From positions 1-18,475 of the forward strand of contig CAJBVC010000142.1 of the NCBI GenBank assembly GCA_903958915.1: 18,475 bases of DNA, given 5' to 3'. Positions 4,995-17,566 of this stretch are shown in pieces. The notes below the pieces were generated by a model. The model did no database searches. It had not been told where the DNA came from and worked only from the letters and a program-made list of their open reading frames with translations. Position 1 is the stretch's first letter; every line of letters starts with the position of its first letter. The translations under genes were made by a program, and so were the position numbers. This DNA is from an uncultured beta proteobacterium (GTDB lineage Bacteria > Pseudomonadota > Gammaproteobacteria > Burkholderiales > Burkholderiaceae_C).

Positions 4995-6349
4995 GCCAAC
5001 TCTTCCTTGCGGATACGGGTAATAGGAGCAAGCACGGTCGATAAAGCCTGCATCTGTGCCATGGCGGCATTCATCCTGGCTTCGACACAATCGTGCGTCA
5101 GGATGATGAGATCGGTCTGATTGGACCCTTCACCACCCACTTCATCGGCTTCACGCTGCAGGACTGCATCGATGCTGATACCTGCCTCGGCCAGAATGCC
5201 TGTCACACGGGCCAGCACGCCCGCTTCATCCGCCACACGCAGGCGAAGGTAATAGCTGGTCACGATTTCACCCATGGTGAGCACCGGCAGCGCACTCATG
5301 GCCTCATCCAAGGTGTGAGGCTGGAACGCCAAATGGGGCACGCGTTGTGCGGCGTCTGCCGTGTGCAGCCGGGCAATGTCCACCAGATCGGCAATGACCG
5401 CACTGGCGGTAGGCTCAGCCCCAGCGCCTTTACCGTAATACAAGGTGGTTCCGACCGCGTCACCTTGCACCACGACTGCATTCATGGCGCCCTCCACGTT
5501 GGCGATCAGGCGTTTGGCGGGAATCAATGCCGGATGCACCCGCAACTCGATGCCTTCACGGGTCTGCGCCTGTGCATCCGCCTGACGGCGCTTGGTGATA
5601 CCGAGCAACTTGATGCGGTAGCCCAGTTGCTCGGCATACTTGATGTCTGCCGCCGACAATTTGGTGATGCCTTCTACATAGGCCTTGTCAAACTGAACCG
5701 GGATGCCAAAGGCGATGGCCGACATGATGGTGGCTTTGTGTGCGGCATCAACGCCCTCAATATCAAAAGTAGGGTCCGCTTCGGCGTAGCCCAGGCGCTG
5801 TGCCTCCTTCAACACCACGCTGAAATCCAGTCCCTTGTCACGCATTTCAGACAGGATGAAATTGGTTGTTCCGTTAATAATGCCGGCGATCCACTGGATA
5901 CGGTTGGCCGTCAATCCTTCGCGCAGCGCCTTGATGATGGGGATGCCACCTGCAACCGCTGCCTCAAACGCCACCATCACCCCTTTGGCAGACGCTGCGG
6001 CAAAAATCTCGGTGCCATGCACTGCCAGCAACGCCTTGTTGGCGGTGACTACATGCTTGCCAGCCGCAATGGCCTCCAGCACCAGCGTTTTGGCAATTCC
6101 ATAACCACCAATCAGCTCGATCACGATGTCGATCTCCGGGTTGGCGATCACAGCGCGCGCATCGGCCACCACCTGTACCCCATCTCCTACGATCGACTTC
6201 GCGCGGGCCACATCGAGATCGGCCACCATCGTAATGGCAATACCCCGACCGGCACGCCGCTGGATTTCTTCCTGATTGCGTTGCAGCACATTAAACGTAC
6301 CCGCACCCACCACCCCAATGCCCAAAAGCCCTACTTGAATCGATTTCAT
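4991..6349 (-). CDS. hom: Homoserine dehydrogenase with C-terminal ACT domain
   Basis: Hom reduces aspartate semialdehyde to homoserine, the branch point to threonine and methionine. The product has 452 residues. The Rossmann fingerprint is near the start (GLLGIGVVGAGT). The family signature AFEAAVAGGIPIIKALREGL is followed by AGIINGTTNFIL and GYAEADPTFDIEGVDAAHK, whose Asp and Lys residues belong to the catalytic site. The last about 90 residues form an ACT domain (YYLRLRVADEAGVLARVTGI), which in this family mediates feedback by threonine. It is a monofunctional enzyme with no aspartokinase fusion. The ATG at 6349 follows the alaA stop by 16 bases, with GAGA about 9 bases upstream as a weak ribosome site. 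Confidence 0.97.
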   Translation of the reverse strand: MKSIQVGLLGIGVVGAGTFNVLQRNQEEIQRRAGRGIAITMVADLDVARAKSIVGDGVQVVADARAVIANPEIDIVIELIGGYGIAKTLVLEAIAAGKHVVTANKALLAVHGTEIFAAASAKGVMVAFEAAVAGGIPIIKALREGLTANRIQWIAGIINGTTNFILSEMRDKGLDFSVVLKEAQRLGYAEADPTFDIEGVDAAHKATIMSAIAFGIPVQFDKAYVEGITKLSAADIKYAEQLGYRIKLLGITKRRQADAQAQTREGIELRVHPALIPAKRLIANVEGAMNAVVVQGDAVGTTLYYGKGAGAEPTASAVIADLVDIARLHTADAAQRVPHLAFQPHTLDEAMSALPVLTMGEIVTSYYLRLRVADEAGVLARVTGILAEAGISIDAVLQREADEVGGEGSNQTDLIILTHDCVEARMNAAMAQMQALSTVLAPITRIRKEELA

Positions 6350-6365
6350 ATTGCAGTCTCGTTAA

Positions 6366-7592
6366 TCAGTTGCTGTGCCGCTTGCGATAGTCATTCAGGA
6401 ATTTGGCAACCCGTGCAATGGCCTCGCGCAAATCGTCTTCGTGTGGCAGAAAGACGATGCGAAAGTGATCGGGCGCGGGCCAATTGAACCCGGTGCCTTG
6501 CACCAGCATGACCCGGGTTTCCTGCAACAGTTCTAGAAAGAATAACTGGTCATCCTTGATCGGATAAATGGCCGGATCCAGACGCGGGAACATATACAGC
6601 GCAGCCGTTGGTTTTACGCAGGTCACGCCAGGAATGGCGGTTATCAGTTCATAGGCCAGATCGCGCTGGCGGCGCAGGCGCCCCCCCTCTCCGACCAATT
6701 CGTTGATGCTTTGATGCCCGCCCAACGCCGTCTGAATCGCCCACTGGCCTGGAACGTTGGAGCACAGCCGCATATTCGAGAGCATGTTGAGCCCTTCGAT
6801 GTAATCGCGGGCAGGCTTTTTGTCGCCCGACACGACCATCCAGCCGGCACGGTAACCACAGGACCGGTAGCTTTTCGACAAGGAGTTGAAGGTCAGCGTC
6901 AGTACGTCGTCGCAAAGGGAAGCAATGGCGGTGTGCTTGGCGCCGTCGTACAAGACCTTGTCGTACACCTCGTCTGCGAATATCACCAACCCGTGTTGGC
7001 GGGCGATCGCCACGATGGAGAGCAAGAGTTCATCTGAGTAAAGCGCCCCGGTGGGATTGTTGGGATTGATGACCACGATGCCCTTGGTTCTGGGGGTTAT
7101 CTTGGCGCGAATATCGTCGAGACGCGGCATCCAGCCATCGTCCTCGTCACACATGTAGTGCACTGGAGTGCCGCCGGACAGGCTCGCCGCAGCGGTCCAC
7201 AGAGGATAATCCGGTGCTGGCAGCAGAATCTCGTCGCCGTCGTCGAGCAAGGCATTGGTGGCCATCACGATCAATTCGCTCGCGCCATTTCCCAGGTAAA
7301 TGTCGTCGAGCGTGACGCCTTTAATGCCCTGCTTCTGGGTTTCGTGCATTACTGCCTTGCGCGCGGCAAATATGCCCTTGCTGTCGGAATATCCGGCCGA
7401 ATTGGGCAAATTGCGAATCATGTCCTGCTGAATTTCTTCAGGTGAATCGAACCCGAACACAGCCAAGTTACCGATGTTGAGCTTGATGATCTTTTGCCCT
7501 TCTTCTTCCATCTGTCGCGCACGGTCCATGATGGGGCCGCGAATGTCGTAACACACAGAAGCCAATTTGGCAGATTTCAGAATAGGTTTCAA
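6366..7592 (-). CDS. alaA: Glutamate-pyruvate (alanine) aminotransferase AlaA, TTG start
   Basis: AlaA (YfbQ) is a class I/II PLP aminotransferase that makes alanine from pyruvate and glutamate. The frame is open to 7742, but the alignable protein begins at KPILKSAKLASVCYDIRGP. This fits a TTG at 7592 with GGAGGG three bases upstream, giving 408 residues against about 405 for E. coli AlaA. Other matching segments are YLGNGASELIVMA, APDYPLWTAA, VVINPNNPTGALYS and IFADEVYDKVLYD. The PLP lysine is in FNSLSKSYRSCGYRAGWM, and WPAPDHFRIVFLP lies near the C-terminus. The usual IGNPAPFGF motif reads IGNLAVFGF here. It heads the alaA-hom-thrC-moe/moa block, so alanine and threonine synthesis probably share regulation. 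Confidence 0.93.
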   Translation of the reverse strand: MKPILKSAKLASVCYDIRGPIMDRARQMEEEGQKIIKLNIGNLAVFGFDSPEEIQQDMIRNLPNSAGYSDSKGIFAARKAVMHETQKQGIKGVTLDDIYLGNGASELIVMATNALLDDGDEILLPAPDYPLWTAAASLSGGTPVHYMCDEDDGWMPRLDDIRAKITPRTKGIVVINPNNPTGALYSDELLLSIVAIARQHGLVIFADEVYDKVLYDGAKHTAIASLCDDVLTLTFNSLSKSYRSCGYRAGWMVVSGDKKPARDYIEGLNMLSNMRLCSNVPGQWAIQTALGGHQSINELVGEGGRLRRQRDLAYELITAIPGVTCVKPTAALYMFPRLDPAIYPIKDDQLFFLELLQETRVMLVQGTGFNWPAPDHFRIVFLPHEDDLREAIARVAKFLNDYRKRHSN

Positions 7593-7606
7593 AGTCCCTC
7601 CAGCAG

Positions 7607-7633
7607 GTGACAGCACACGGCGAAACCTATAAT
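7607..7633 (+). promoter_or_regulatory. Candidate sigma-70 promoter for the Mth938-like gene
   Basis: A perfect TATAAT lies at 7628-7633. GTGACA at 7607-7612 is a 5/6 match to the -35 element, but the spacer is only 15 bases. Transcription would start near 7640, about 55 bases before the ATG at 7695. The -35 half also lies just outside the alaA ribosome site on the other strand, so the 102-base gap must serve both genes. I could not identify a clear minus-strand promoter for alaA. Confidence 0.35.
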
Positions 7634-7694
7634 TTGACCACAGTTCTGCGCACATTTGGTGCACTGCAACACCCATATTCAGCGAGAAAGCAGA

Positions 7695-8060
7695 ATGAAA
7701 TTCCATCCCGATGCCCGCGCCAGTCAGTCCATTACCGCCCATGGGGAGGGTTGGATCGAGGTGAATCGGGAAAGGTATACCTCAAGCCTGATCGTCAGTG
7801 CCATGGGTGAGCGACTCGACTGGCCATGTCAATCCTTTGAAGAGTTGCAATCTGCCGACTTTGAGCGGATTCTGACCCTGGATCCAGAACTGGTGCTATT
7901 TGGTAGTGGAGCGCGTTTGCGCTTTCCCAATCCGCAATGGCTGGCGCCGCTGTATGCGCGCCGTATTGGGGTTGAAACGATGGACACTGGGGCGGCATGC
8001 AGAACCTACAATTTCCTGGCTGCTGAAGGGCGGCGGGTGGTCGCAGCTCTTTTGTTGTAA
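7695..8060 (+). CDS. Mth938-like domain protein (NDUFAF3/DUF498 family)
   Basis: The 121-residue product fits the compact Mth938 fold shared by archaeal Mth938 and the mitochondrial complex I assembly factor NDUFAF3. Characteristic segments are an N-terminal ITAHGEGWIEVNRERYTSSL, DPELVLFGSGARLRFP near residues 68-83, and the C-terminal GVETMDTGAACRTYNFLAAE, with the family's Thr-AAC-T-Y-N pattern. The ATG at 7695 was chosen because the family usually begins close to this point and GAGAAAG lies about 7 bases upstream. The bacterial role is not established, and a link to respiratory complex assembly is only an analogy. It has no signal peptide. It is divergent from alaA and 138 bases upstream of bcp, a gap in which I see no convincing promoter or terminator. 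Confidence 0.85.
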   Translation: MKFHPDARASQSITAHGEGWIEVNRERYTSSLIVSAMGERLDWPCQSFEELQSADFERILTLDPELVLFGSGARLRFPNPQWLAPLYARRIGVETMDTGAACRTYNFLAAEGRRVVAALLL

Positions 8061-8198
8061 CCCGTGCTTACCCTGATTCCGATTGGGGCTCATTTCAGAG
8101 TAAAATCATGGGTTGCAGTCGGAGATCAATCAAACGCTGTCACGTTTGAAGTCCAAAGTTTTGACTGACACATTCAGCACCCGAGAATTAAGTACCTT

Positions 8199-8684
8199 AT
8201 GGCGATCGTTGTCAACAAACCCCTCCCAGAATTTGAAGCAAATGCCACCAGTGGCATCAAAGTCAGCAACACCACCCATGTGGGCAAGACTATGGTGCTG
8301 TACTTTTATCCCAAGGACAACACCCCGGGATGTACCACCGAGGCGATGCAATTTCGGGACAAGTACAAGGATTTTGTCAAGGCGGGCGCTACCGTGTTCG
8401 GTGTGTCGCGCGACAACATGAAATCACATGATGAATTCAAGGCGAAACTGGAACTACCCTTTGAGTTGATCGCCGACACCGAAGAAAAGATGTGCCATAT
8501 GTTTGGCGTGGTCAAAAACAAGATCATGTATGGCAAAAAGGTGAAAGGCATTGAGCGCAGCACATTTTTGGTCGGCGCAGACGGCATCCTGAAGGAAGAA
8601 TGGCGCGGGTTGAAGGTTCCTGGCCATGTGGACGATGTATTGAAGGCCGTTAAGGGTTTGAAAACGCTCAAGAAAGCAGCCTGA
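8199..8684 (+). CDS. bcp: Thioredoxin-dependent peroxiredoxin, Bcp/PrxQ type
   Basis: This cytoplasmic thiol peroxidase reduces hydrogen peroxide and organic hydroperoxides at the expense of thioredoxin. The 161-residue product has the standard AhpC/TSA fold: YFYPKDNTPGCTTEAMQFRD carries the peroxidatic Cys45, and VFGVSRDNMKSHDEF and FLVGADGILKEEW are typical Bcp segments. The Cys found five residues later in E. coli Bcp is replaced by Met50. The only other Cys is Cys99 (EEKMCHMFGV), in the helix used as resolving site by the PrxQ subclass with widely spaced cysteines. An atypical 2-Cys mechanism with Cys45-Cys99 is therefore inferred. The ATG at 8199 has a weak ribosome site. phoH follows after 21 bases, so co-transcription is likely. 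Confidence 0.96.
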   Translation: MAIVVNKPLPEFEANATSGIKVSNTTHVGKTMVLYFYPKDNTPGCTTEAMQFRDKYKDFVKAGATVFGVSRDNMKSHDEFKAKLELPFELIADTEEKMCHMFGVVKNKIMYGKKVKGIERSTFLVGADGILKEEWRGLKVPGHVDDVLKAVKGLKTLKKAA

Positions 8685-8705: not shown

Positions 8706-10385
8706 ATGCATAATGGGAACATGCCATTGCCACCCGCCCCCACCAAACCTGCAGATCGCCTTACCGCCAAGGCTTTTGATGTAAAAGCCCGTAGTACTGC
8801 CCGAGTTCGCAAGGTCGACCCAACTGAAGCAGAAAATGCACCTCAACCCGAAGCAGTATCGGTGAAACGTCCTGCGCGCGGAGTAAACGACCGACCATCC
8901 ATTGCGACCTCGCCTTCTGCCGCGACGAAGGTTGTAGTCCCAACCCAACGTCTAGCGGCACCGGTAGCCTCTCGGCTTAGAAAGAGCGCCCATCCGGGCC
9001 CCGCAAAACTGTTTGTTCTCGACACAAACGTGCTTTTGCATGATCCGATGTCATTGTTCCGATTTGAAGAGCATGACATTTACCTTCCTATGATTGTTCT
9101 GGAAGAGTTGGATGGGCACAAAAAGGGGATGACGGAGGTTGCGAGAAATGCAAGGCAAACCAGCCGAACTTTGGATGCACTGGCAGGCGCACCGGGAGCC
9201 GACATTACCGCTGGGTTCCAGCTTGATAGCACCGGGCAGAGAGATGCTCGCGGAAAACTGTTGTTTCAGACCCAGCCGCTAGATTACTCGCTGCCAACCA
9301 GCCTCCCACAGGGCAAGGCCGACAATCAAATACTGGGGGTTGTTGAGGCGTTGCGCAAGCAACACCCGGCGCGCGAAGTTGTTCTGGTTTCCAAGGACAT
9401 CAATATGCGCGTCAAGGCGCGCGCATTGGGATTGGCGACTGATGACTACCAGAATGACAAGACGCTGGAGGACGGCGACCTGCTGTACGCTGGATCTTTG
9501 GCGTTGCCTACAGATTTCTGGGCTACTCACGGGCAAACAGTTGAAAGTTGGCAGCAAGGTCAGCACACCTTCTACAAGGTGGATGGTCCGACGGTACCGA
9601 ATATGATGGTGAATCAGTTTGTCTATTTTGAGTCCCCGGGCGAGCCAAGTCTGTACGCCCGGGTGTCCGAGATTCGGGGCAGTTCCGCTGTATTGAAAAC
9701 CCTGCGTGACTTCAATCACCTGAAAAATGCCGTTTGGGGCGTGACGACCCGCAACCGAGAGCAGAATTTCGCGATGAATTTGCTGATGGATCCGGAGGTG
9801 GATTTCGTCACCCTTACCGGTACCGCTGGCACCGGGAAAACCTTGATGGCGTTGGCAGCCGGACTCACACAGGTTCTTGATGATCGCCGCTACACAGAGA
9901 TTATCGTGACGCGCGCTACGGTAAGTGTCGGCGAGGACATTGGTTTCTTACCCGGCACCGAAGAGGAAAAAATGGGTCCGTGGATGGGCGCGTTGGATGA
10001 CAATTTGGAAGTGCTTGGCAAAACCGACACCAGTGCTGGCGAATGGGGGCGTGCGGCGACCAATGAACTCATTCGCAGCCGCATCAAAATCAAAAGCATG
10101 AACTTCATGCGTGGACGCACGTTCCTGAACAAGTACGTCATCATTGATGAGGCCCAGAACCTGACACCAAAGCAGATGAAAACACTCATTACGCGCGCAG
10201 GTCCGGGGACCAAGATCATTTGCATGGGCAACCTGGCGCAGATTGATACACCCTACCTCACCGAAGGCTCCTCGGGCCTCACTTTTGCAGTCGACAGATT
10301 CAAGGGTTGGCCACATAGCGGACATATCACACTAGCGCGTGGCGAGCGTTCGCGCCTGGCGGATTTCGCTAGTGAAGTGCTTTGA
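8706..10385 (+). CDS. PIN domain-PhoH ATPase fusion (PhoH2/YlaK type)
   Basis: This family joins an N-terminal PIN ribonuclease fold to a PhoH-type P-loop ATPase. Studied PhoH2 proteins unwind and cleave RNA, and the cellular role here is unknown. The 559-residue product begins with about 100 residues of low-complexity, basic, Ala/Pro-rich sequence. The PIN domain follows at about 101-265 with its acidic residues in FVLDTNVLLHDP (Asp106), VLEELDG, ADNQIL (Asp206) and SKDINMR (Asp231). The PhoH domain contains Walker A GTAGTGKT (372-379), VGFLPG-like DIGFLPGTEEEKMGPWM, and Walker B YVIIDEAQN (478-485). ATGs at 8706 and 8721 are both possible, each with only modest ribosome sites. No antitoxin-like small gene precedes it, unlike mycobacterial phoAT-phoH2. 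It ends convergently with the ferritin-fusion gene. Confidence 0.95.
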   Translation: MHNGNMPLPPAPTKPADRLTAKAFDVKARSTARVRKVDPTEAENAPQPEAVSVKRPARGVNDRPSIATSPSAATKVVVPTQRLAAPVASRLRKSAHPGPAKLFVLDTNVLLHDPMSLFRFEEHDIYLPMIVLEELDGHKKGMTEVARNARQTSRTLDALAGAPGADITAGFQLDSTGQRDARGKLLFQTQPLDYSLPTSLPQGKADNQILGVVEALRKQHPAREVVLVSKDINMRVKARALGLATDDYQNDKTLEDGDLLYAGSLALPTDFWATHGQTVESWQQGQHTFYKVDGPTVPNMMVNQFVYFESPGEPSLYARVSEIRGSSAVLKTLRDFNHLKNAVWGVTTRNREQNFAMNLLMDPEVDFVTLTGTAGTGKTLMALAAGLTQVLDDRRYTEIIVTRATVSVGEDIGFLPGTEEEKMGPWMGALDDNLEVLGKTDTSAGEWGRAATNELIRSRIKIKSMNFMRGRTFLNKYVIIDEAQNLTPKQMKTLITRAGPGTKIICMGNLAQIDTPYLTEGSSGLTFAVDRFKGWPHSGHITLARGERSRLADFASEVL

Positions 10386-10582
10386 GAAGTTGAACTAGCC
10401 TCTTCGCTTGAACTTGGCATGCTGCTCCGTTGGGTTTGTCGTCTTAACGGTGCTGTCGGTTTGTAAGGCCTCCCGGTCCTTCGACCGAAATCCCGACCCT
10501 CGATCGGACAGGCAGGATATCTAGTCCACCGCGAGGTAGCCTCCATGGCCCCTAGACACACGTGGGGCTCAGGCCCATTGTT
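10386..10582. other. 197-base convergent gap, no gene seen
   Basis: This gap separates the 3' ends of the PhoH gene and the ferritin-fusion gene. The only compact structure I see is CGGTC-CTTC-GACCG at 10474-10487, a 5-base stem, without a clear T run on either side. It could be a weak bidirectional termination hairpin. No small ORF with a ribosome site stands out. Confidence 0.4.
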
Positions 10583-12568
10583 TCACGGGTCCGAACGAAA
10601 CCCGATGCGTGCATGCGTGTTGTCGCAGAATGGTTTGTTGGAGGACCCGCCGCAGCGGCACAATCGTGCGGTCTGGACTCTCTGTATCGTGTGACCGGTA
10701 CCCCCGCAAATCTCCAAATTTCCGGTGAACTCCAGTGGTCCATTGGGGGTCGGGACTATCGTCAACTCCCCAGCGCGGTTCTCCAGCGGTTCAGAGTCAA
10801 TCACAGCCCTCTCTCCTGTAGCGGCAAAACCGACCTCCAAATGGGTGCTGTCACAAAACGGTTTATTTCGGGATTTCCCACAACGGCAAAGCGTTACTCG
10901 GAACATCGGCTCTTGTCCTTCAAGCGCGATCGTGGCCCGCACTGCATAGGGTCCGTTTTCCCGAACCCGCAAGACATTGACTTCTGGCGCCTGCTCCTGG
11001 GGTCCTCCATCCAGACGCTTGTAGGTGATCGCGCCTGAGCAACAATCCTGAGCAATCTCGGCCATATGGTCTGGCGTGGTCATTTCAGGATGAAGCCAAG
11101 GGCCAACAACGTTGGCGAGGAAAACCCGTGGCGCATTTAGGACGCAATTGCGCGAGTGAATGCAACGCTTGGTGTCGTAATCGATATGAATCTTGTCGGT
11201 ACTTGCCGAGTTCGGACTGTCCGGGTCGACCTTGAGCTCAGTACTTGGTGCAACTACGGACACGGGTATCGCTCCAACTGTCGCCGGCACCTTGGCTATT
11301 TCGTGCAACGCAACTTGGCCGGCATAGGCCTCGTGCAACTTCGCCAACTTACCTGCCACCGCTTTCAAACTGTCGGCCACCCCGGGGAGAGCTGCAGCCC
11401 CTTCTAACTCCAGGGCGACTTCGGAGAGTTCCAAGGCGCGCTCACTCAGAATCTGTGCCGCGCAGCGCTCTACCAGTGGCCCGATGGAGCCAGGCATTTC
11501 AAAACTCAGGCCGGCCCTGATCGAACCTCCCTCGCGTCGCAGAGCAATCAAGCTTGCAGCATCACCCACGGTGGTCAATGCGTACATCATCGAAGTAGCC
11601 GCTTGTGCCAGACCCGTGCGCATAGGCTGTGGGAGGGCGCTGGGTGCATAGACTTGGGCAAACGTTCGCAACATGAGTGTGTATAGACAATTTCCCAGGT
11701 CAACCACACGCATTGCCAAGGGATGTGTGATGCACTCCGGATCCGAGGCGCGTAGCGGATCTAACAACACCGGATTTACAGCCACTGGACGCGCTGGCTC
11801 GAACTCAGGCCGAGCCGATTTCATTTGTCGAAATTCTTCCAGTACCGAGCGAAACCTTGCGTAGTGCGAGTCCTCACTGTGTGCGGGTGCCCCCTCACCC
11901 TGCACCACAATTTCCTCGATGGCACGATGTGCGGAAGCGAGATCCGTCACGGCAAATAGACCAGGAAGGGCAAAATGTGCCCCACTGACTTGTGCCACAC
12001 CGTGACCGGCAAAAAGAACCTCCTCGCCCATCCTTTTCGCCAATGTATCGAGACCGTCAGCAATCGTATGGTAGAGATGCCCCTGCGAAGGGTAATCCAT
12101 CGGAGTCGGCGAGAACAGTTCGCGACGAATCTCACGGCGATAGTGAAGCAAGTGGCGAAAAGCCGTTCCATCCGGAATATCGATCTCCAGAGGCTTCTCG
12201 ATGAACATGAAGTGTTGTAGAGAGGACTCGTCAAACGCAGCGAGATTCAGCTCGATATCTGCTGGGAAGCGCCCTGGAGGTATAGGAAAGTTGGGACGTG
12301 AAAAATGCGCGGAAGAACCCAGCGCAGTCAGAATATTGTTCACCAGGCTAAGGTGCAGCATTTCCTGGAGTGCTACGGTTCGAATTTCCCTGCGCCAGCG
12401 TTCGATGGCCTCCAATTCCGATGCGCTCACGCCTTCCTCCAGCGAACGCTTGAGGCTCATCGCCGTGTACAAATAGCTGCACATCACCGCATGCTCAAAC
12501 TCCGCTGCTTCTGCCAATAGGAAGAACAGTTCCTCGCGGTCCCGAATAGCGTCTACGTGAGTTGTCAT
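10583..12568 (-). CDS. Ferritin-like (VioB/RebD-type) + Fer4_19 + two CDGSH iron-sulfur domains, 661-residue fusion protein
   Basis: The ATG at 12568 (MTTHVDAIRDREELFFLL) has GGGAG six bases upstream. The frame continues to 12781 but that extension looks non-coding. Residues 1 to about 240 match the ferritin-like domain of VioB/RebD/StaD enzymes, with likely metal ligands in EAAEFEHAVMCSYLYTA (20-36) and LQEMLHLSLVNNIL (67-80). Residues 270-430 are a helical part without a recognised name. A divergent ferredoxin-type domain follows: KRCIHSRNC (Cys469, Cys475) and DCCSGAITY (Cys509/510). Two CDGSH modules end the protein: CRCGKSRNKPFCDSTH (561-576) and CRCGGSSNKPFCDNTH (637-652), each with the three Cys and one His ligands. 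No signal peptide is seen. Neither a violacein nor a rebeccamycin gene set is present, so the substrate is unknown; a redox or oxidative role is inferred. It is divergent from the ankyrin gene. Confidence 0.88.
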   Translation of the reverse strand: MTTHVDAIRDREELFFLLAEAAEFEHAVMCSYLYTAMSLKRSLEEGVSASELEAIERWRREIRTVALQEMLHLSLVNNILTALGSSAHFSRPNFPIPPGRFPADIELNLAAFDESSLQHFMFIEKPLEIDIPDGTAFRHLLHYRREIRRELFSPTPMDYPSQGHLYHTIADGLDTLAKRMGEEVLFAGHGVAQVSGAHFALPGLFAVTDLASAHRAIEEIVVQGEGAPAHSEDSHYARFRSVLEEFRQMKSARPEFEPARPVAVNPVLLDPLRASDPECITHPLAMRVVDLGNCLYTLMLRTFAQVYAPSALPQPMRTGLAQAATSMMYALTTVGDAASLIALRREGGSIRAGLSFEMPGSIGPLVERCAAQILSERALELSEVALELEGAAALPGVADSLKAVAGKLAKLHEAYAGQVALHEIAKVPATVGAIPVSVVAPSTELKVDPDSPNSASTDKIHIDYDTKRCIHSRNCVLNAPRVFLANVVGPWLHPEMTTPDHMAEIAQDCCSGAITYKRLDGGPQEQAPEVNVLRVRENGPYAVRATIALEGQEPMFRVTLCRCGKSRNKPFCDSTHLEVGFAATGERAVIDSEPLENRAGELTIVPTPNGPLEFTGNLEICGGTGHTIQRVQTARLCRCGGSSNKPFCDNTHARIGFRSDP

Positions 12569-12627
12569 GCTGGCTCCCAAGAGGTTGTACGAACACTTGC
12601 CACGTAACAAGGATATAGCGAATGCGC

Positions 12628-12657
12628 TTTCCATGCATTGCGCGAAGGAATTATGAT
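12628..12657 (+). promoter_or_regulatory. Candidate sigma-70 promoter of the ankyrin gene
   Basis: TTTCCA (12628-12633, 4/6) and TATGAT (12652-12657, 5/6) are separated by 18 bases. Transcription would start near 12665 and leave a leader of about 138 bases containing an inverted repeat. The match is moderate. Confidence 0.3.
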
Positions 12658-12672
12658 CGGAAGCACCAGCCC

Positions 12673-12692
12673 GCTTGCACCAGGCTGCAAGC
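12673..12692. promoter_or_regulatory. Perfect inverted repeat in the ferritin-fusion/ankyrin gap
   Basis: GCTTGCA-CCAGGC-TGCAAGC is a perfect 7+7 base inverted repeat with a 6-base centre. It lies between the divergent genes, just left of the second copy of the 12-base direct repeat. It could be an operator for a dimeric regulator, or a leader hairpin in the ankyrin transcript. Confidence 0.4.
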
Positions 12693-12802
12693 GCCTCCCA
12701 AGAGGTCAAGCCCCAAGTCAAGAGGCGGCGTGTACACAGTTTTCGGGCGCCCAAATTCTGGGTCTGAGGGGCCTGATCCATGAACCTATGAAGGAGCCTT
12801 CA

Positions 12803-13309
12803 GTGACAGCCTTGATGAATGCCGTCGTAAACAACAACACTGAGCTGGTCAAACAACTGATTCAAGATGGCGCAAATGTGGATGCGCTGGACGAAAGTCT
12901 CGATTCACCACTTGTCATCGCGTCCTACAAGGGCTTTACGCCAATCGTGCAGTTGCTATTGAATGGCGGAGCAAGTGTGGTTGCCGTTGATCCCGACATG
13001 AAGGCGACTGCTCTGCACGCAGCGGCGTATGCGGGGAATGCCGACGTAGCGATACTGTTGATTCGGCACCATATTGACATCAACAAGCAGGGGCCAAAAA
13101 ACGGCTACACGGCATTGCATGATGCGATCTGGCAAGGTCACGCAGATGTGGTGAAGGTACTCTTAGAAGCAGGTGCCGACCTGACTCTTAAGACTCACCG
13201 TGGTGAGACGCCAATTATGTTTGCCCAGGCGAGCCACCATGCAGACATTGCTGCACTGATCGCGCAAAAAATGAAGCTCAGCGGTGAAAAAATAGGGCGG
13301 GCTGAATAA
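12803..13309 (+). CDS. Ankyrin-repeat protein, GTG start
   Basis: The GTG at 12803 is preceded by AAGGAG at a 6-base spacing, clearly better than the in-frame ATGs at 12788 (no ribosome site) or 12815. It gives 168 residues. About five ankyrin repeats fill the protein: LMNAVVNNNTELVKQLIQDG, then units beginning at DSPLVIASYKGFTPIVQLLL, ATALHAAAYAGNADVAILLI and YTALHDAIWQGHADVVKVLL, then a closing GETPIMFAQASHHADIAALI. There is no signal peptide, membrane segment or catalytic domain, so it is probably a cytoplasmic protein-binding adaptor. The partner is unknown. The divergent ferritin-fusion protein is a candidate on position alone. It converges on the 13324-14124 gene with a 14-base gap. Confidence 0.88.
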   Translation: MTALMNAVVNNNTELVKQLIQDGANVDALDESLDSPLVIASYKGFTPIVQLLLNGGASVVAVDPDMKATALHAAAYAGNADVAILLIRHHIDINKQGPKNGYTALHDAIWQGHADVVKVLLEAGADLTLKTHRGETPIMFAQASHHADIAALIAQKMKLSGEKIGRAE

Positions 13310-13323
13310 GAAACGGCCACTCT

Positions 13324-14124
13324 CTATGGCAGGGCGTCGATTTCCTTGAGACCTGCATTGACTAGTTCCAGGTAGGCGTTGTAGGGAAAGCCCTCTTCAA
13401 TATAGATCTCTGATGTCAGGAGGGCGGTTGCTTCGAGTGATCGTGGCGCAGCTCGCAGTGCATCGATACGCGCTCCTACATGCGTCGCGTCGCTCTGAGT
13501 TGCAGTTCGAAATTGCCCCGTTGTACCGCCCGCCGCGTTGCGAATTCGCCAACGGTAGCGCTCACCCGATCGCAACAACTTGGGAAACACAGCAACCTGA
13601 CCAGTCACTTCCGCAGTAATCACTTCATGATCCGGGCTATCCAAGGCTTCAACGCTTAACGATTCAACGCTGCTGCGCATCGATGTCGAAAGGGGGACTG
13701 CCAAGTTCCTGTCCGCCAGCAGCCTTCCGTAAGGCATCCCCGCAACTTGACCCAGATCCCTGGTCTGCCCAAATTTGGTCCTGGCGTCTCCTTTGGCAAT
13801 GGCCAACAGGCTCGATCCGAAAGAATCGTCTCCAGCCACATCAGATGCGTTTGGCATATTCCAGACCGCCCCCATTGCGATTTCGGAACAGGTCCGTTGG
13901 CCGCCCCGGGGTACGTAGCAAACACTGACCTGACCAGTCTCCACCTTGAGCTGCTCGCACTTGGAAAATCTCATGGGGTTCTTCCCCAGGACCTTGACGG
14001 TCGAATCGCCCACACGGACAACGGCATCTCGGGTCGAAACGACAACGCAGCCCGCGAACGATGAGAAATGCACCATCGCGCACAGTGCAGCGGCGAGGGG
14101 CCGGCGAATGTAGTTGGTGTTCAT
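13324..14124 (-). CDS. Exported protein of unknown function, linked to the CHASE2 gene
   Basis: I do not recognise the family with confidence. The 266-residue product starts MNTNYIRRPLAAALCAMVHF, a signal peptide with a positive start and a hydrophobic core. FAGC at 23-26 resembles a lipobox, but Phe at -3 makes lipoprotein processing uncertain. The mature part has a beta-rich N-terminal section (DAVVRVGDSTVKVLG) faintly like FecR-type periplasmic domains, and four cysteines (Cys56, 69, 79 and, if uncleaved, 26). A section near 175-205 (FPKLLRSGERYRWRIRN) resembles beta-sandwich modules. It ends in a helical tail (TALLTSEIYIEEGFPYNAYL) like the last TPR-style helices of some envelope proteins. 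It lies 11 bases after the CHASE2 gene, so it is very probably co-transcribed with it. Confidence 0.75.
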   Translation of the reverse strand: MNTNYIRRPLAAALCAMVHFSSFAGCVVVSTRDAVVRVGDSTVKVLGKNPMRFSKCEQLKVETGQVSVCYVPRGGQRTCSEIAMGAVWNMPNASDVAGDDSFGSSLLAIAKGDARTKFGQTRDLGQVAGMPYGRLLADRNLAVPLSTSMRSSVESLSVEALDSPDHEVITAEVTGQVAVFPKLLRSGERYRWRIRNAAGGTTGQFRTATQSDATHVGARIDALRAAPRSLEATALLTSEIYIEEGFPYNAYLELVNAGLKEIDALP

Positions 14125-14135
14125 GAAATCAGGTC

Positions 14136-15527
14136 TCAGTGGAATACAAGTAGCGCCGCCCAGAATACGATAGGCAGAAACAACAGCTGATCGAGGTGGG
14201 ACATCAAGCTGTGGAGCACCGAATGGGGTTGCGCCAACTCCTTTGCATGCGCCACGTGGGGGCGACTGGCGATGAGGGTTTTCACAAAAAACCCCGCAAT
14301 CATCGGTCCGGGGTTATTCCAGAGATTATGACGAAAGAGCCATGCACTGCTGAGGGTCACCAGCACGACCGAAGCCAGGAAGATCAGGCAACTGGCCAGT
14401 AGCCAGCCCCGCGCAGCAAAGTAATGCGAAGGGGGCCAATTCCCCAGTTCCCTGGAACGTTGCTGGTTCCAGTGAAATCGGTGCCAGACCGCATGAAATA
14501 TGAAGCCGGCCGCGATTCCAAGGACGAGATCCAGAAGTATTGAGAAAGTATGCGACACGTGGGTCGGGCGCATCTCACTGAAGATCGTCGCTGCATGCAA
14601 GACCGCGCCCTTCTTGGGTCCGAACGCCGTGTTGAACTGATCGTTGGGATTGAATCCTGCACCAAGTACAACAATGCAACCTGACAGGTCCAATGATGCT
14701 AAATCCGATTGCTGCGAAATCTGCACAGACTGCACGTCATCAAAGAACGCGGGATTGAGTGGCCTTTGCATCGCAAGATCATCAAAATGCGAAGACAGAT
14801 CCACCGGAAACTCCTTGCTGAGAAACGCCGCATGCTCCACCCCCTGTTTAGACAGGTTGCACAGCGAATCCGCACGTTGCACCTGGGTCAAAGTTTTTGC
14901 GGTTACCGGTCCGAGTGTCTCCAAATCCACTGGATACCTCAGAACGGTGCCCTGCATTTCAAGAAGGTAAGGGTAGGCAAATTCAACGCCCGCATCACAC
15001 AGCTTGCGCATCCATGTGTACTTCTCCAAAACAATGCTATCCATCGATACAGGAAATGGCGCCGTGACAACGATTTTGTGCCCACTTCGCGCACCCTGCA
15101 TGAGAACGTCATCCATTCGGTGCTGCCGGACATCATTGCCAAGCCCCGGGCCAGGCGACAGGTCCAGATCAATCGCCAATGCCACGGGTTTAGAAGCGAG
15201 TATCGATCCCATGAGGTCTGCGAGTGCGCCACGATCAAGGGGAGAAGCCTGGCCAAAGTCCCGTTCGTACATCTCGTCGGAAATAAGGAGCGTCATGGGA
15301 CGCTCTTTCTCGATCGCAGTCCCAGTCTTACGTCCCTCCTGAATACCGAGTGTGACGCTGCTCGCAACCCTGAGCGACAGCGAATCGAGCCAGTTTACCC
15401 AGCCATGGTGCTCCAGAATCAATGTAATCGCGACAAGCACCAAGGCCACGTATCCGTGGTGGAGGACCTCGCCAAAGACCCGGCGCATCGATGAGGGAGA
15501 GGAATGCGGGTGGTGCGATTGAGTCAA
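14136..15527 (-). CDS. CHASE2-domain membrane protein without output domain, TTG start
   Basis: The TTG at 15527 has GGGGGAG at a 6-base spacing; the in-frame ATG at 15488 has no ribosome site. This gives 463 residues. A first membrane helix (about 24-40, YVALVLVAITLILEH) is followed by a periplasmic CHASE2 sensor domain (about 45-325). Its hallmarks are MTLLISDEMYERDFGQ with PLDRGALADLMGSILASK, VALAIDLDLSPGPG, and GCIVVLGAGFNPNDQFNTAF ending GAVLHAATIFSE. Further membrane helices are at about 328-349 and 374-397, probably near 405-420, and 447-462. In many CHASE2 proteins these lead to a kinase, cyclase or GGDEF domain. Here the protein ends after the membrane part, so signalling must go through partners. 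Neighbours are an exported protein downstream and a divergent exported caspase. Confidence 0.88.
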   Translation of the reverse strand: MTQSHHPHSSPSSMRRVFGEVLHHGYVALVLVAITLILEHHGWVNWLDSLSLRVASSVTLGIQEGRKTGTAIEKERPMTLLISDEMYERDFGQASPLDRGALADLMGSILASKPVALAIDLDLSPGPGLGNDVRQHRMDDVLMQGARSGHKIVVTAPFPVSMDSIVLEKYTWMRKLCDAGVEFAYPYLLEMQGTVLRYPVDLETLGPVTAKTLTQVQRADSLCNLSKQGVEHAAFLSKEFPVDLSSHFDDLAMQRPLNPAFFDDVQSVQISQQSDLASLDLSGCIVVLGAGFNPNDQFNTAFGPKKGAVLHAATIFSEMRPTHVSHTFSILLDLVLGIAAGFIFHAVWHRFHWNQQRSRELGNWPPSHYFAARGWLLASCLIFLASVVLVTLSSAWLFRHNLWNNPGPMIAGFFVKTLIASRPHVAHAKELAQPHSVLHSLMSHLDQLLFLPIVFWAALLVFH

Positions 15528-15660
15528 AGGCTACTCCCCCTTGAGGCAATAGCGGTGCCATTCATCACACATTTGCAAGGCTCCTTCTCGCTTGAGAGAT
15601 GCTGTCGAACAAGGTGACAAGACCAGGTGCGGCGACCATGCACCACAATTTGCAGGTCGT

Positions 15661-15674
15661 GAATTGGTCAATTC
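15661..15674. promoter_or_regulatory. Perfect palindrome between the CHASE2 and caspase genes
   Basis: GAATTG-GT-CAATTC is a perfect 6+6 inverted repeat with a 2-base centre, ending 35 bases before the caspase ATG. It overlaps TTGGTC, a weak -35-like hexamer with ACTAAT at 15689-15694 as a poor -10 (19-base spacer). An operator role is inferred. The rest of the 182-base gap shows no other clear signal apart from the CHASE2 ribosome site. Confidence 0.35.
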
Positions 15675-15709
15675 GAGCGTCGTTTTGCACTAATCGGTAA
15701 GATCATGCC

Positions 15710-17566
15710 ATGATTCCAGCATCATGCCTGATCCTCGCCCGCTGTGCGTTACTAGTGTGTGGCGCACTCTGCATCGCATTCTCAAACGCGCATGCGGCGC
15801 GCATCGCATTGGTCATGGGCAACGACAACTACCACTTCGTCAGCAAACTTCGAAAGGCGGGCAATGATGCCGAGGCAATGGCAATTGAATTGCGCGCTGC
15901 AGGTTTCGACGTCAGTCTGCACCGCGATCTGGACTACCGGGGAATGATCAAGGCGACTGAGTCGCTGTACGGCAAGATTCAGGGTGGCGACGAAGTCGTG
16001 GTGTTCTTCGCTGGTCACGGGCTGCAAATCAAGAGTGGAAACTATATTTTGCCGATCGACATTGAGGCGAATACCGAGTCAGCGGTTGAAAAGACCTCCT
16101 ACTCGCTCAATGATCTGAGTGAAAGACTTGAAGCCACCAAGGCCGGCTTCAGTCTGGTGATGATTGATGCCTGCCGTGACAACCCGCTGAAATCCAGAGG
16201 TCGCTCCGTCGGTGCTGAACGTGGCCTGAGCCCGCCCGACCCAGCGATTGGTCAAATGATTGTTTACTCGGCAAGTCGAGGAGAACAGGCACTGGATCGT
16301 TTGACAGACAGCGATACCAATCCCAACAGCGTGTTCACGCGTGAATTCATCGCACGAATGCGCAAGCCCGGCGTCAAGGTGGACGAACTGGTTCGTGAAA
16401 CACAGGTTTCGGTCGAAAAACTTGCATCGAGTGTCGGGCACAAACAGCGGCCTGCGCTTTACAACGAAGCCCGTGGTAGTTTCTATTTTTTCGGTCCGAC
16501 CACTGTGGTGACTCCAGCGCCAACCGTGAATTCGGTGGCGATGTATGAAGCGCAACGCGAGGATCGCTTTTGGGAGGATGCCAAAGTCACCGCCAATCGG
16601 GATGGCTTTAATGCCTATCTTGAGCAGTACCCTAATGGTCGCTACGCCAGTCTTGCCCGAGCCAACATCAATCGGCTATCTGGCAGCAAGACCGAGACGT
16701 CCAGTTCCCCTGTGCAGGGCGCCTCTGCAGTAGTCCGCGCGCCCCCCCTGAAAGAACCGGGAACCCCTGTGCCCTCTATCACGCTTACGAGTGTGGTTGC
16801 CAAGCCCAACAGCCAACCTTCCCCGTCCAGTGCAACTGTTCCCATTCTGGCGCCTGCAACCGAAAAAACCGCAGTTCCTGCAGCCATTCCCACGTCTGAG
16901 CCCAGTTTGCTCGCTTCTGCACCAAAGGCATTGACGACAAGGCCTGTTGAAGTTGCTGCGATTCCTGCGGCAGCGGCACCTGAGGTGGCACGAGAGATTC
17001 CAACCGTGACGAAAAGCAGTTTCACGTTGCCGAACGGAGATCGTTACGAAGGTCAGGTCGTCGGCGTTACACGTACCGGAGTTGGGAGTTATATCTTTGC
17101 TAACGGAGATCGATACGACGGTGACTTTGTCAATGACCAATTTCAGGGGCATGGCATTTTTCGCGCGGCCAGCGGTGAAGTTTTTGAAGGGAATTTTGAG
17201 CACGGCCTGAAGAACGGGCAAGGGATCTACAGTTTTGTCAACGGTGATCAGTACGAGGGCAAATTTGTAAAGAACATTTTTACCGGAAAAGGTGTCATAA
17301 AGCTTGCGAACGGTGACCGCTATGAAGGCGAAATTCTCAATGGCGTCAAGCATGGTCAGGGGATTCACTTCTTTGCCAACAAGGACCGATACGAGGGAGG
17401 ATTTGTCGCGGGGATGCAGGACGGAATCGGAACGCACTACTACAGCAACGGGGACAAGTACCAAGGCGGATTCAAGGGTGGCGTTCGTCATGGCAAAGGC
17501 ACCTATAGATTCGCAAGCGGTCTTGAAAAGGCGACAGAGTTTAACAACGGCATCGAGAAGGAATAG
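15710..17566 (+). CDS. Exported caspase-like (C14) protease with seven MORN repeats
   Basis: The 618-residue product starts with a signal peptide (residues 1 to about 29, core LILARCALLVCGALCIAF, cleavage probably after AHA). Residues 30-262 are a caspase/orthocaspase p20-like domain: RIALVMGNDNY, the catalytic His in VVFFAGHGLQIKSGNYILP (His103) and the catalytic Cys in VMIDACRDNPL (Cys155), then QMIVYSASRGEQALD. A helical segment common in bacterial caspases follows (DRFWEDAKVTANRDGFNAYL, YPNGRYASLARANINRL). Next come about 115 residues of Pro/Ala/Thr/Ser-rich linker, then seven 23-residue MORN repeats to near the C-terminus. Both catalytic residues are intact, so activity, probably after Arg or Lys as in other orthocaspases, is plausible. 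Export to the periplasm or surface is inferred. The start ATG at 15710 has only a weak GGTAAG ribosome site. It is divergent from the CHASE2 gene. Confidence 0.92.
   Translation: MIPASCLILARCALLVCGALCIAFSNAHAARIALVMGNDNYHFVSKLRKAGNDAEAMAIELRAAGFDVSLHRDLDYRGMIKATESLYGKIQGGDEVVVFFAGHGLQIKSGNYILPIDIEANTESAVEKTSYSLNDLSERLEATKAGFSLVMIDACRDNPLKSRGRSVGAERGLSPPDPAIGQMIVYSASRGEQALDRLTDSDTNPNSVFTREFIARMRKPGVKVDELVRETQVSVEKLASSVGHKQRPALYNEARGSFYFFGPTTVVTPAPTVNSVAMYEAQREDRFWEDAKVTANRDGFNAYLEQYPNGRYASLARANINRLSGSKTETSSSPVQGASAVVRAPPLKEPGTPVPSITLTSVVAKPNSQPSPSSATVPILAPATEKTAVPAAIPTSEPSLLASAPKALTTRPVEVAAIPAAAAPEVAREIPTVTKSSFTLPNGDRYEGQVVGVTRTGVGSYIFANGDRYDGDFVNDQFQGHGIFRAASGEVFEGNFEHGLKNGQGIYSFVNGDQYEGKFVKNIFTGKGVIKLANGDRYEGEILNGVKHGQGIHFFANKDRYEGGFVAGMQDGIGTHYYSNGDKYQGGFKGGVRHGKGTYRFASGLEKATEFNNGIEKE
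17045..17527 (+). repeat. Seven tandem MORN-repeat units (69 bases each) in the caspase gene
   Basis: Seven in-frame units of exactly 69 bases begin at 17045, 17114, 17183, 17252, 17321, 17390 and 17459. Each encodes a YEG-F-G--G-G-Y-F-NGD type MORN repeat (for example YEGKFVKNIFTGKG). The units are diverged at DNA level. Unit 1 lacks the usual Phe and unit 7 has a degenerate end (ASGLE). MORN arrays bind lipids or act as elongated protein scaffolds in studied proteins; the ligand here is unknown. Confidence 0.9.

Follow-up and report, generated by a model that had tools for sequence, protein, structure and literature searches.

A candidate envelope signalling module comprising a CHASE2-type membrane protein, an MtxA-like protein and a predicted-exported caspase with MORN repeats

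What CHASE2 domains bind, as ligands or as partners, and what exported caspases do in bacteria are two questions touched by a locus in which a CHASE2-type gene is flanked by genes for two predicted-exported proteins, one of them a caspase. Do the three genes belong to one envelope system, and how would a sensor devoid of a cytoplasmic output domain act within it? The locus is part of the window, the whole stretch of DNA that was analysed (18,475 nucleotides of contig CAJBVC010000142.1, GenBank assembly GCA_903958915.1, from an uncultured beta proteobacterium). The initial annotation had read the locus as a possible envelope stress or self-digestion module in which CHASE2 senses a signal and gates the protease. 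The three ORFs on which it relied are present, and 11 bases were indeed counted between the stop of the CHASE2 gene and the start of P266. The features of the locus are as follows.

13324..14124, minus strand: P266, a 266-residue predicted-exported MtxA-like protein with a predicted signal sequence, N-terminal β-domain, Ig-like domain and three C-terminal helices (ORF list)
13507..13731, minus strand: predicted Ig-like domain of P266, residues 132-206 (structure prediction and match)
14136..15527, minus strand: 463-aa membrane protein of divergent CHASE2 type, lacking a cytoplasmic output domain (ORF list, PF05226 homologs, AF2 model)
14142..14552, minus strand: C-terminal membrane helices of the CHASE2-type protein, residues 326-462, reaching the protein end (hydropathy, AF2 model)
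14571..15320, minus strand: predicted periplasmic CHASE2-like α/β domain, residues 70-319 (AF2 model, conserved columns)
15710..17566, plus strand: 618-aa C14 caspase, predicted to be exported, with MORN repeats towards its C-terminus (ORF list, Pfam, structure match, alignment)
15710..15796, plus strand: predicted signal peptide of the caspase, residues 1-29, ending in AHA (hydropathy; cleavage between AHA and AR placed by eye)
15800..16483, plus strand: Peptidase C14 domain, residues 31-258 (Pfam)
16016-16018 and 16172-16174, plus strand: putative dyad His103 and Cys155 (alignment)
17021..17521, plus strand: MORN repeat array, residues 438-604 (Pfam; match to the solved MORN1 structure 6t4r, 2.5e-39)

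The caspase gene is divergent from the CHASE2-P266 pair and lies on the opposite strand. A mobility search found no plasmid match, and a promoter and terminator scan gave counts not above those of shuffled sequence. When the three proteins were compared with PADLOC models the caspase alone matched; of two neighbouring proteins also compared, one with ankyrin repeats and one ferritin-like, the former hit models that contain repeats.

The membrane protein is, as judged by its sequence relatives, a divergent relative of CHASE2 proteins. PF05226 does not match the window protein itself in Pfam, where a sub-threshold DUF5671 is the sole signal, and is precomputed in 17 of 21 listed database homologs (one of the 21 being the window protein). 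It also scores above the Pfam cut-off in the homologs of loci L005 (1.1e-15) and L003 (3.3e-7) and below it in that of L007 (24.4 versus 26.3 bits). The CHASE2 label of the initial annotation is therefore upheld through the homologs, while the window protein is too divergent for the Pfam model. Hydropathy and the AF2 model (pLDDT 78.8) predict one N-terminal helix, then the α/β domain, then three or more membrane helices with which the chain ends; these predictions display the N-terminal helix, extracytoplasmic domain and three membrane helices of CHASE2 topology. The absence of an output domain, already noted in the first reading, is borne out, as the predicted model terminates in membrane helices and no cyclase, kinase or other output domain was found. 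A PDB fold search with the model gave no match at E<=0.001, a result that rules out no known fold. The gene probably starts at ATG 15488 (450 aa) rather than at TTG 15527 (463 aa), because P0001, a database entry of 99% identity, is 450 aa long.

P266 has no match in Pfam, NCBIfam or PADLOC, and the CHASE2-type protein likewise has none in NCBIfam. The best structural match of the predicted P266 C-terminus (Ig domain plus helices) is the C-terminal domain of MtxA, and no sequence-level match between the two proteins was found. In terms of modelled structure, P266 is thus no orphan but a member of an Ig-plus-helices family with MtxA as its best structural match. In magnetotactic bacteria the gene for MtxA is followed by a CHASE2-adenylate cyclase gene (PMC4439547). 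As described there, MtxA is exported and has a β-rich N-terminus and an Ig-like and TPR-like C-terminus, an arrangement that P266 may share; its gene, like that of P266, adjoins a CHASE2 gene. The two systems differ in that the passages on MtxA mention no caspase and the window CHASE2-type protein carries no cyclase (PMC4439547).

The third protein is, on sequence grounds, a caspase with an intact His-Cys dyad, and proteolytic activity is predicted. Peptidase_C14 (PF00656) matches at 3.3e-29 (102.7 bits versus a cut-off of 21.4) and MORN at 4.1e-31, with six stretches passing. His103 and Cys155 are invariant in a three-sequence alignment (A7), and both motifs are present in 16 of 16 ORFs that combine C14 and MORN. 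Export is a prediction from the hydrophobic N-terminus and, for the caspase, from the signal ahead of the C14 domain; that of P266 is likewise predicted from its hydrophobic N-terminus. The PADLOC “caspase” model matches at 1.8e-10 over the C14 region only, the caspase_w_EACC1 model reaches 45 of 140 bits, far under its cut-off, and no window protein has an EACC match above cut-off.

The neighbours of the window-type CHASE2 gene were compared among its relatives. Searching species genomes with an alignment of CHASE2 proteins yielded nine loci. The CHASE2 gene is followed by one of the P266 type in L003 and L004, where a profile detected it, and in L005 and L007, where it was identified first by position and alignment and then recovered by a profile lacking both seeds (1.7e-14 and 6.6e-9, respectively). 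The peptidase beside the CHASE2 gene varies: trypsin-CHAT in L003, with a P266 homolog; C14 in L005, giving the trio C14-CHASE2-P266; TPR-CHAT in L006, beside a shorter CHASE2 gene with an adjacent transposase-like gene (by eye) and no P266 seen; M48 in L007, with a P266 homolog; and M48 in L008 and L010, with no clear P266 homolog. L009 and L011 carry M48 look-alike genes, so called by resemblance and unscanned, and the small protein encoded between CHASE2 and M48 in L008, L010 and L011 resembles P266 no more than marginally (0.03 to 0.09). In L004 the sequence ahead of the CHASE2 gene amounts to 284 bases, and beyond P266 lie one small ORF and the incomplete gene of a TPR protein. A peptidase-type gene therefore lies within two genes of CHASE2 in 8 of 8 loci with enough flank, two of them by resemblance (unscanned). 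Since trypsin-CHAT, CHAT and M48 also adjoin window-type CHASE2 genes, the protease beside them is exchangeable. The CHASE2-type proteins of the window, L003, L005 and L007-L011 comprise 450-610 residues; those of the window, L003, L007 and L008 end in membrane helices (L005 is less clear), and no output domain was detected in the four scanned (window, L003, L005 and L007). In a weak survey of 399 genomes of the order, with at most four candidates scored in each, window-type CHASE2 was found in its own genome only; in sets of 121, 150, 99 and 119 genomes centred on four other carriers it was found in the seed genome only (best 10 to 16 candidates per genome).

The complete gene set recurs in the Usitatibacter palustris family, where a C14-MORN profile finds matches in 21 of 28 genomes. 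U. palustris itself (G058) encodes a CHASE2-cyclase, a P266-like protein and a C14-MORN protein, with gaps of 14 and 21 bases. From 40 matches listed in the search of this family, 23 (21 loci, L111 included) served as tests and 10 as controls, and seven were left out (three of G1297, three of G400 and one of G374); L184 and L186, contig-end fragments without a C14 start, and L185, which is MORN-only, were excluded from the count. In all 18 fetched loci with the C14 start on the contig (18 genomes), CHASE2/cyclase, one or two P266-like genes (two in nine loci) and C14 succeed each other in this order on one strand. The CHASE2 part is visible in 16 of the 18, L176 and L177 showing the cyclase end only at the contig end. 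MORN repeats are part of the C14 ORF in 15 loci; a stop precedes them in L177, and they fall outside the contig in L183 and L187. The gene beside CHASE2 is of the P266 type in the window, L003, L004, L005, L007 and 16 of the 18 family loci, the contigs of the remaining two ending within the cyclase part. Two further loci, L190 and L197, present CHASE2-cyclase and P266 followed by tandem C14 genes without MORN, bringing the lineages with the trio to about five (window, U. palustris family, L005, L190 and L197). No P value is attached to the 18 loci because they share descent. The initial annotation would have been abandoned had the three genes failed to co-occur in other genomes; they do co-occur, in 18 of 18 family loci and, with a C14 protein of different architecture, in L005, L190 and L197.

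The equivalence of the P266 genes across these lineages was assessed by profiles. The first profile applied to the 18 loci contained one U. palustris-family sequence (L111). A window-type profile without any sequence of that family (A3) was searched against 4645 ORFs of 102 loci, a set rich in trio loci by design, and at E<=0.05 returned the five seed loci and 18 further ORFs, all of them P266 genes located between CHASE2/cyclase and C14; these 18 non-seed matches come from 12 of the 18 family loci. Of the 18 family loci, a seven-seed profile omitting L005 and L007 retrieved 10 at E<=0.001, and a profile seeded with the window and four close homologs retrieved eight at E<=0.01, with L111 best (3.8e-5). 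Detection of P266 in six loci (L176, L177, L179, L180, L182 and L187) needs a family-containing profile. The reverse search is weak: a family-only profile reaches the window P266 at E 0.076 and misses those of L005 and L007, and it detects P266 in L197 (1.7e-21) and L190 (7.5e-21). Direct comparison of A3 with the family profile A8 gave a probability of 93 (E 2.6e-7) over the Ig-plus-helix part.

Weak family-profile matches were also observed beside C14 in L227 (3.2e-4) and L198 (1e-3), in a second L197 gene on the other strand (5.5e-6) and in L074 (0.011), and the seeds from the window and its four homologs score one short L059 ORF at 0.026. The UniRef name of the U. palustris P266 homolog is “FecR family protein”. 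Assignment of P266 to FecR (PF04773) was rejected, as neither P266, nor its four homologs (L003, L004, L005 and L007), nor 13 members of A8 have a Pfam match, and profile comparison with five FecR proteins (A5) returned a probability of 0.8. A relation to DUF928 was suggested by L198, where a DUF928 protein is encoded beside a C14 gene; A8 matches that protein at E 1e-5 over the Ig part, but the window-type A3 reaches a probability of only 11.

Among 42 control loci in which C14 lacks MORN (L108-L110, L114-L116, L188-L191 and L196-L227, several of them short through contig ends), two, L190 and L197, have CHASE2-cyclase and P266. The sampling was hand-picked, with 30 listed places in other families and L107-L116 (including L111). 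C14 paralogs within the U. palustris family (L208-L217) combine with CHASE2 and P266 in none of 10 loci, the MORN-only loci L112, L113 and L192-L195 have trio partners in none of six, and the MORN-only locus of the U. palustris family (L185) contains no C14, CHASE2 or P266. CHASE2 genes without a cyclase match occur in controls L209, L210, L216 and L218; in L209 the gene near C14 encodes a CHASE2-protein kinase, and the type of the other three is unscanned.

Together, the CHASE2-type, MtxA-like and caspase-MORN proteins probably constitute a signalling module of the envelope, a reading to which we assign a probability of about 0.55; the sensor and the MtxA-like protein would sense a periplasmic state and control the caspase. 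All three proteins are predicted to face the periplasm. By analogy with MtxA, whose gene precedes a CHASE2-cyclase gene, the MtxA-like protein is predicted to be the soluble partner that the CHASE2 domain binds. A periplasmic complex of CHASE2 and P266 would control the exported caspase. In the Usitatibacter form the same complex may signal inward through cyclic nucleotide and outward through proteolysis; the outward output alone would remain in the window form, which would argue that the caspase is linked to the CHASE2/MtxA-like complex and not to the cyclic nucleotide. In the window, L003, L005 and L007-L011 a peptidase gene stays beside CHASE2 although no cyclase was seen on the CHASE2 protein (scanned in the window, L003, L005 and L007), which suggests that the peptidase is tied to the periplasmic side. 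Its MORN array may hold the caspase on a membrane or on a partner, and the most likely action would be restricted cleavage of envelope proteins, of which the MtxA-like protein may be one. The module originally proposed is retained in that its gene set recurs, and is modified in that the output-less sensor is not the sole form (18 loci carry a cyclase) and the protease is exchangeable. Extended further, and at somewhat below even odds, caspase-fold proteases might serve CHASE2 sensors in general as an outward output: a periplasmic adaptor of the MtxA type, bound to CHASE2, would switch on an exported envelope caspase, the cyclic nucleotide would be an optional second, inward output absent here, and CHAT, trypsin-CHAT and M48 would plug into the same sensor type. 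If the protease is gated from the periplasm, bacterial caspase signalling extends beyond the cytoplasm. The recurrent set offers a candidate soluble partner for the sensor and a possible wider family and role for MtxA, and U. palustris is a named species open to experimental tests of the module.

The same gene association would arise if the caspase acted upstream, trimming the MtxA-like protein or the periplasmic domain of CHASE2 and thereby setting the sensor, so that the protease is the input. Proteolysis sets the sensor in anti-sigma and FecR-type circuits, and in the cyclase-bearing relatives, where the sensor already has an output, a protease would complete the circuit. The output-less CHASE2 proteins of the window, L003, L005 and L007-L011, however, give a purely upstream protease nothing to drive, and because the window sensor has no output left we regard this order of events as unlikely. 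The window caspase-MORN protein could also be an independent neighbour of the CHASE2-P266 pair whose divergent layout is coincidental. Its closest relative, in G012, is 64% identical and has no CHASE2 or P266 profile match within 17 kb; it adjoins a divergent, FecR-like gene whose PF04773 match (0.0067) falls short of the cut-off. The caspase-MORN query matches in 22 of 61 relatives, compared with two of 61 for the A1 CHASE2 query (the own genome and one weak match). The absence of CHASE2 and P266 neighbours in G012 disfavours a fixed unit, and the divergent orientation in the window also speaks against a strict one. Nevertheless, coincidence is quite improbable given the one-row trio in 18 of 18 loci of another family and in L005, L190 and L197, with a control frequency of 2/42.

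Two further explanations concern the role of the caspase-fold protein. MORN arrays are membrane or protein binding modules, and the protein might be a MORN-tethered periplasmic pseudo-protease or scaffold that uses the C14 fold for binding. Pseudo-forms of bacterial caspases are among those described in print (PMC6426788), but the His and Cys motifs retained in the 16 C14+MORN ORFs and in the window make this very unlikely. The PADLOC “caspase” match (1.8e-10) would fit a caspase-type phage-defence or cell-suicide system. That match spans the C14 region only and has no counterpart for CHASE2 or P266. Predicted export together with a cyclase-linked sensor in the relatives is a poor fit to a cytoplasmic caspase defence; a defence role is the most remote of these explanations.

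Several components of the proposed envelope module are already in print separately, namely a caspase-CHASE2 fusion, MtxA with a CHASE2-cyclase, FecR with a CHASE2 kinase and MORN-caspases, according to the relevant sections of the respective reports. No description of the three-gene set as an envelope module of separate genes was found in the literature searched, which mostly excluded subscription journals and preprints. A metacaspase-CHASE2 fusion of Trichodesmium erythraeum (PMC2853523, PMC3501461) likewise links a C14 caspase to a CHASE2 receptor; as portrayed there it is one chain with a caspase predicted to be cytoplasmic, whereas the window has separate genes, a caspase predicted to be exported and a third, MtxA-like protein. 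EACC2-caspase systems, which have a variable C-terminus that is CHASE2 in some, combine caspase and CHASE2 in one kind of system (PMC8195603), in contrast with the window proteins, for which no EACC match reached the cut-off. A count of MORN-metacaspase architectures from metagenomes of the Baltic Sea (PMC4933709) also joins MORN and caspase in one protein, with MORN N-terminal of the caspase in the architectures listed and C-terminal in the window; gene neighbours are not mentioned in the passages concerned. The BiofilmReg operon, as outlined in PMC5192318, encodes a LysM-FecR protein and a CHASE2 histidine kinase and thus resembles the window in placing an exported protein beside a CHASE2 sensor; it differs in its two-component output, in the absence of a caspase from that outline and in that P266 is not recognised as FecR. 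Among 22 loci whose neighbours were partly scanned, FecR proteins are encoded within two genes of CHASE2 in L060, L066, L070, L071 and L074.

Homologs, in the Usitatibacter palustris family, of the window's 266-residue, predicted-exported MtxA-like protein (P266) resemble, over an Ig-like region, a DUF928-DUF4384 ORF in another fetched locus, L198:

4264-5328, minus strand: DUF928-DUF4384 ORF; a divergent caspase (Peptidase C14) ORF starts within it, at 5306

The Ig-like stretch of this ORF matched the 13-member alignment of these P266 homologs with an E-value of 1e-5, and P266, MtxA and DUF928 may belong to one superfamily. A marginal P266 match was also given by the small ORF between the CHASE2 and M48-type genes in L008, L010 and L011. 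In L008-L011 (about 9700-13100), the Pseudomonas CHASE2 proteins, in which an output domain was not recognised, are followed by a gene for an M48-type lipoprotein. L003 carries two unassigned genes (6357-8245) upstream of a trypsin-CHAT gene; Pfam models gave no hit to either of them at E<=0.1.

Outside the Usitatibacter palustris family, L190 and L197 encode a CHASE2-cyclase and a P266 homolog, followed by tandem C14 genes (L190 5181-8730, L197 4693-8404); the L190 C14 copies display, as read by eye, a twin-arginine-like N-terminus. L071 (3272-7748) presents the cyclase as a separate ORF, together with a 508-residue CHASE2 ORF and a FecR protein. A FecR-like gene is divergent from the same-genus caspase-MORN gene of L107 (7928-11420), with 37 bases between the longest ORFs, and its product may be a further exported partner of a caspase. 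The window's genome encodes a second long MORN protein:

G000:C148, L113 2144-4063: long MORN protein without a C14 match

Two window genes neighbour the trio:

within 12638-13309, plus strand: ankyrin-repeat protein (Pfam Ank_2, 1e-29)
10583-12781, minus strand: single protein with ferritin-like, 4Fe-4S mono-cluster and CDGSH (two stretches) domains

The latter resembles VioB over part of its length, with a score far below the VioB cut-off. The ankyrin-repeat and P266 genes are convergent, with 14 bases from stop to stop.
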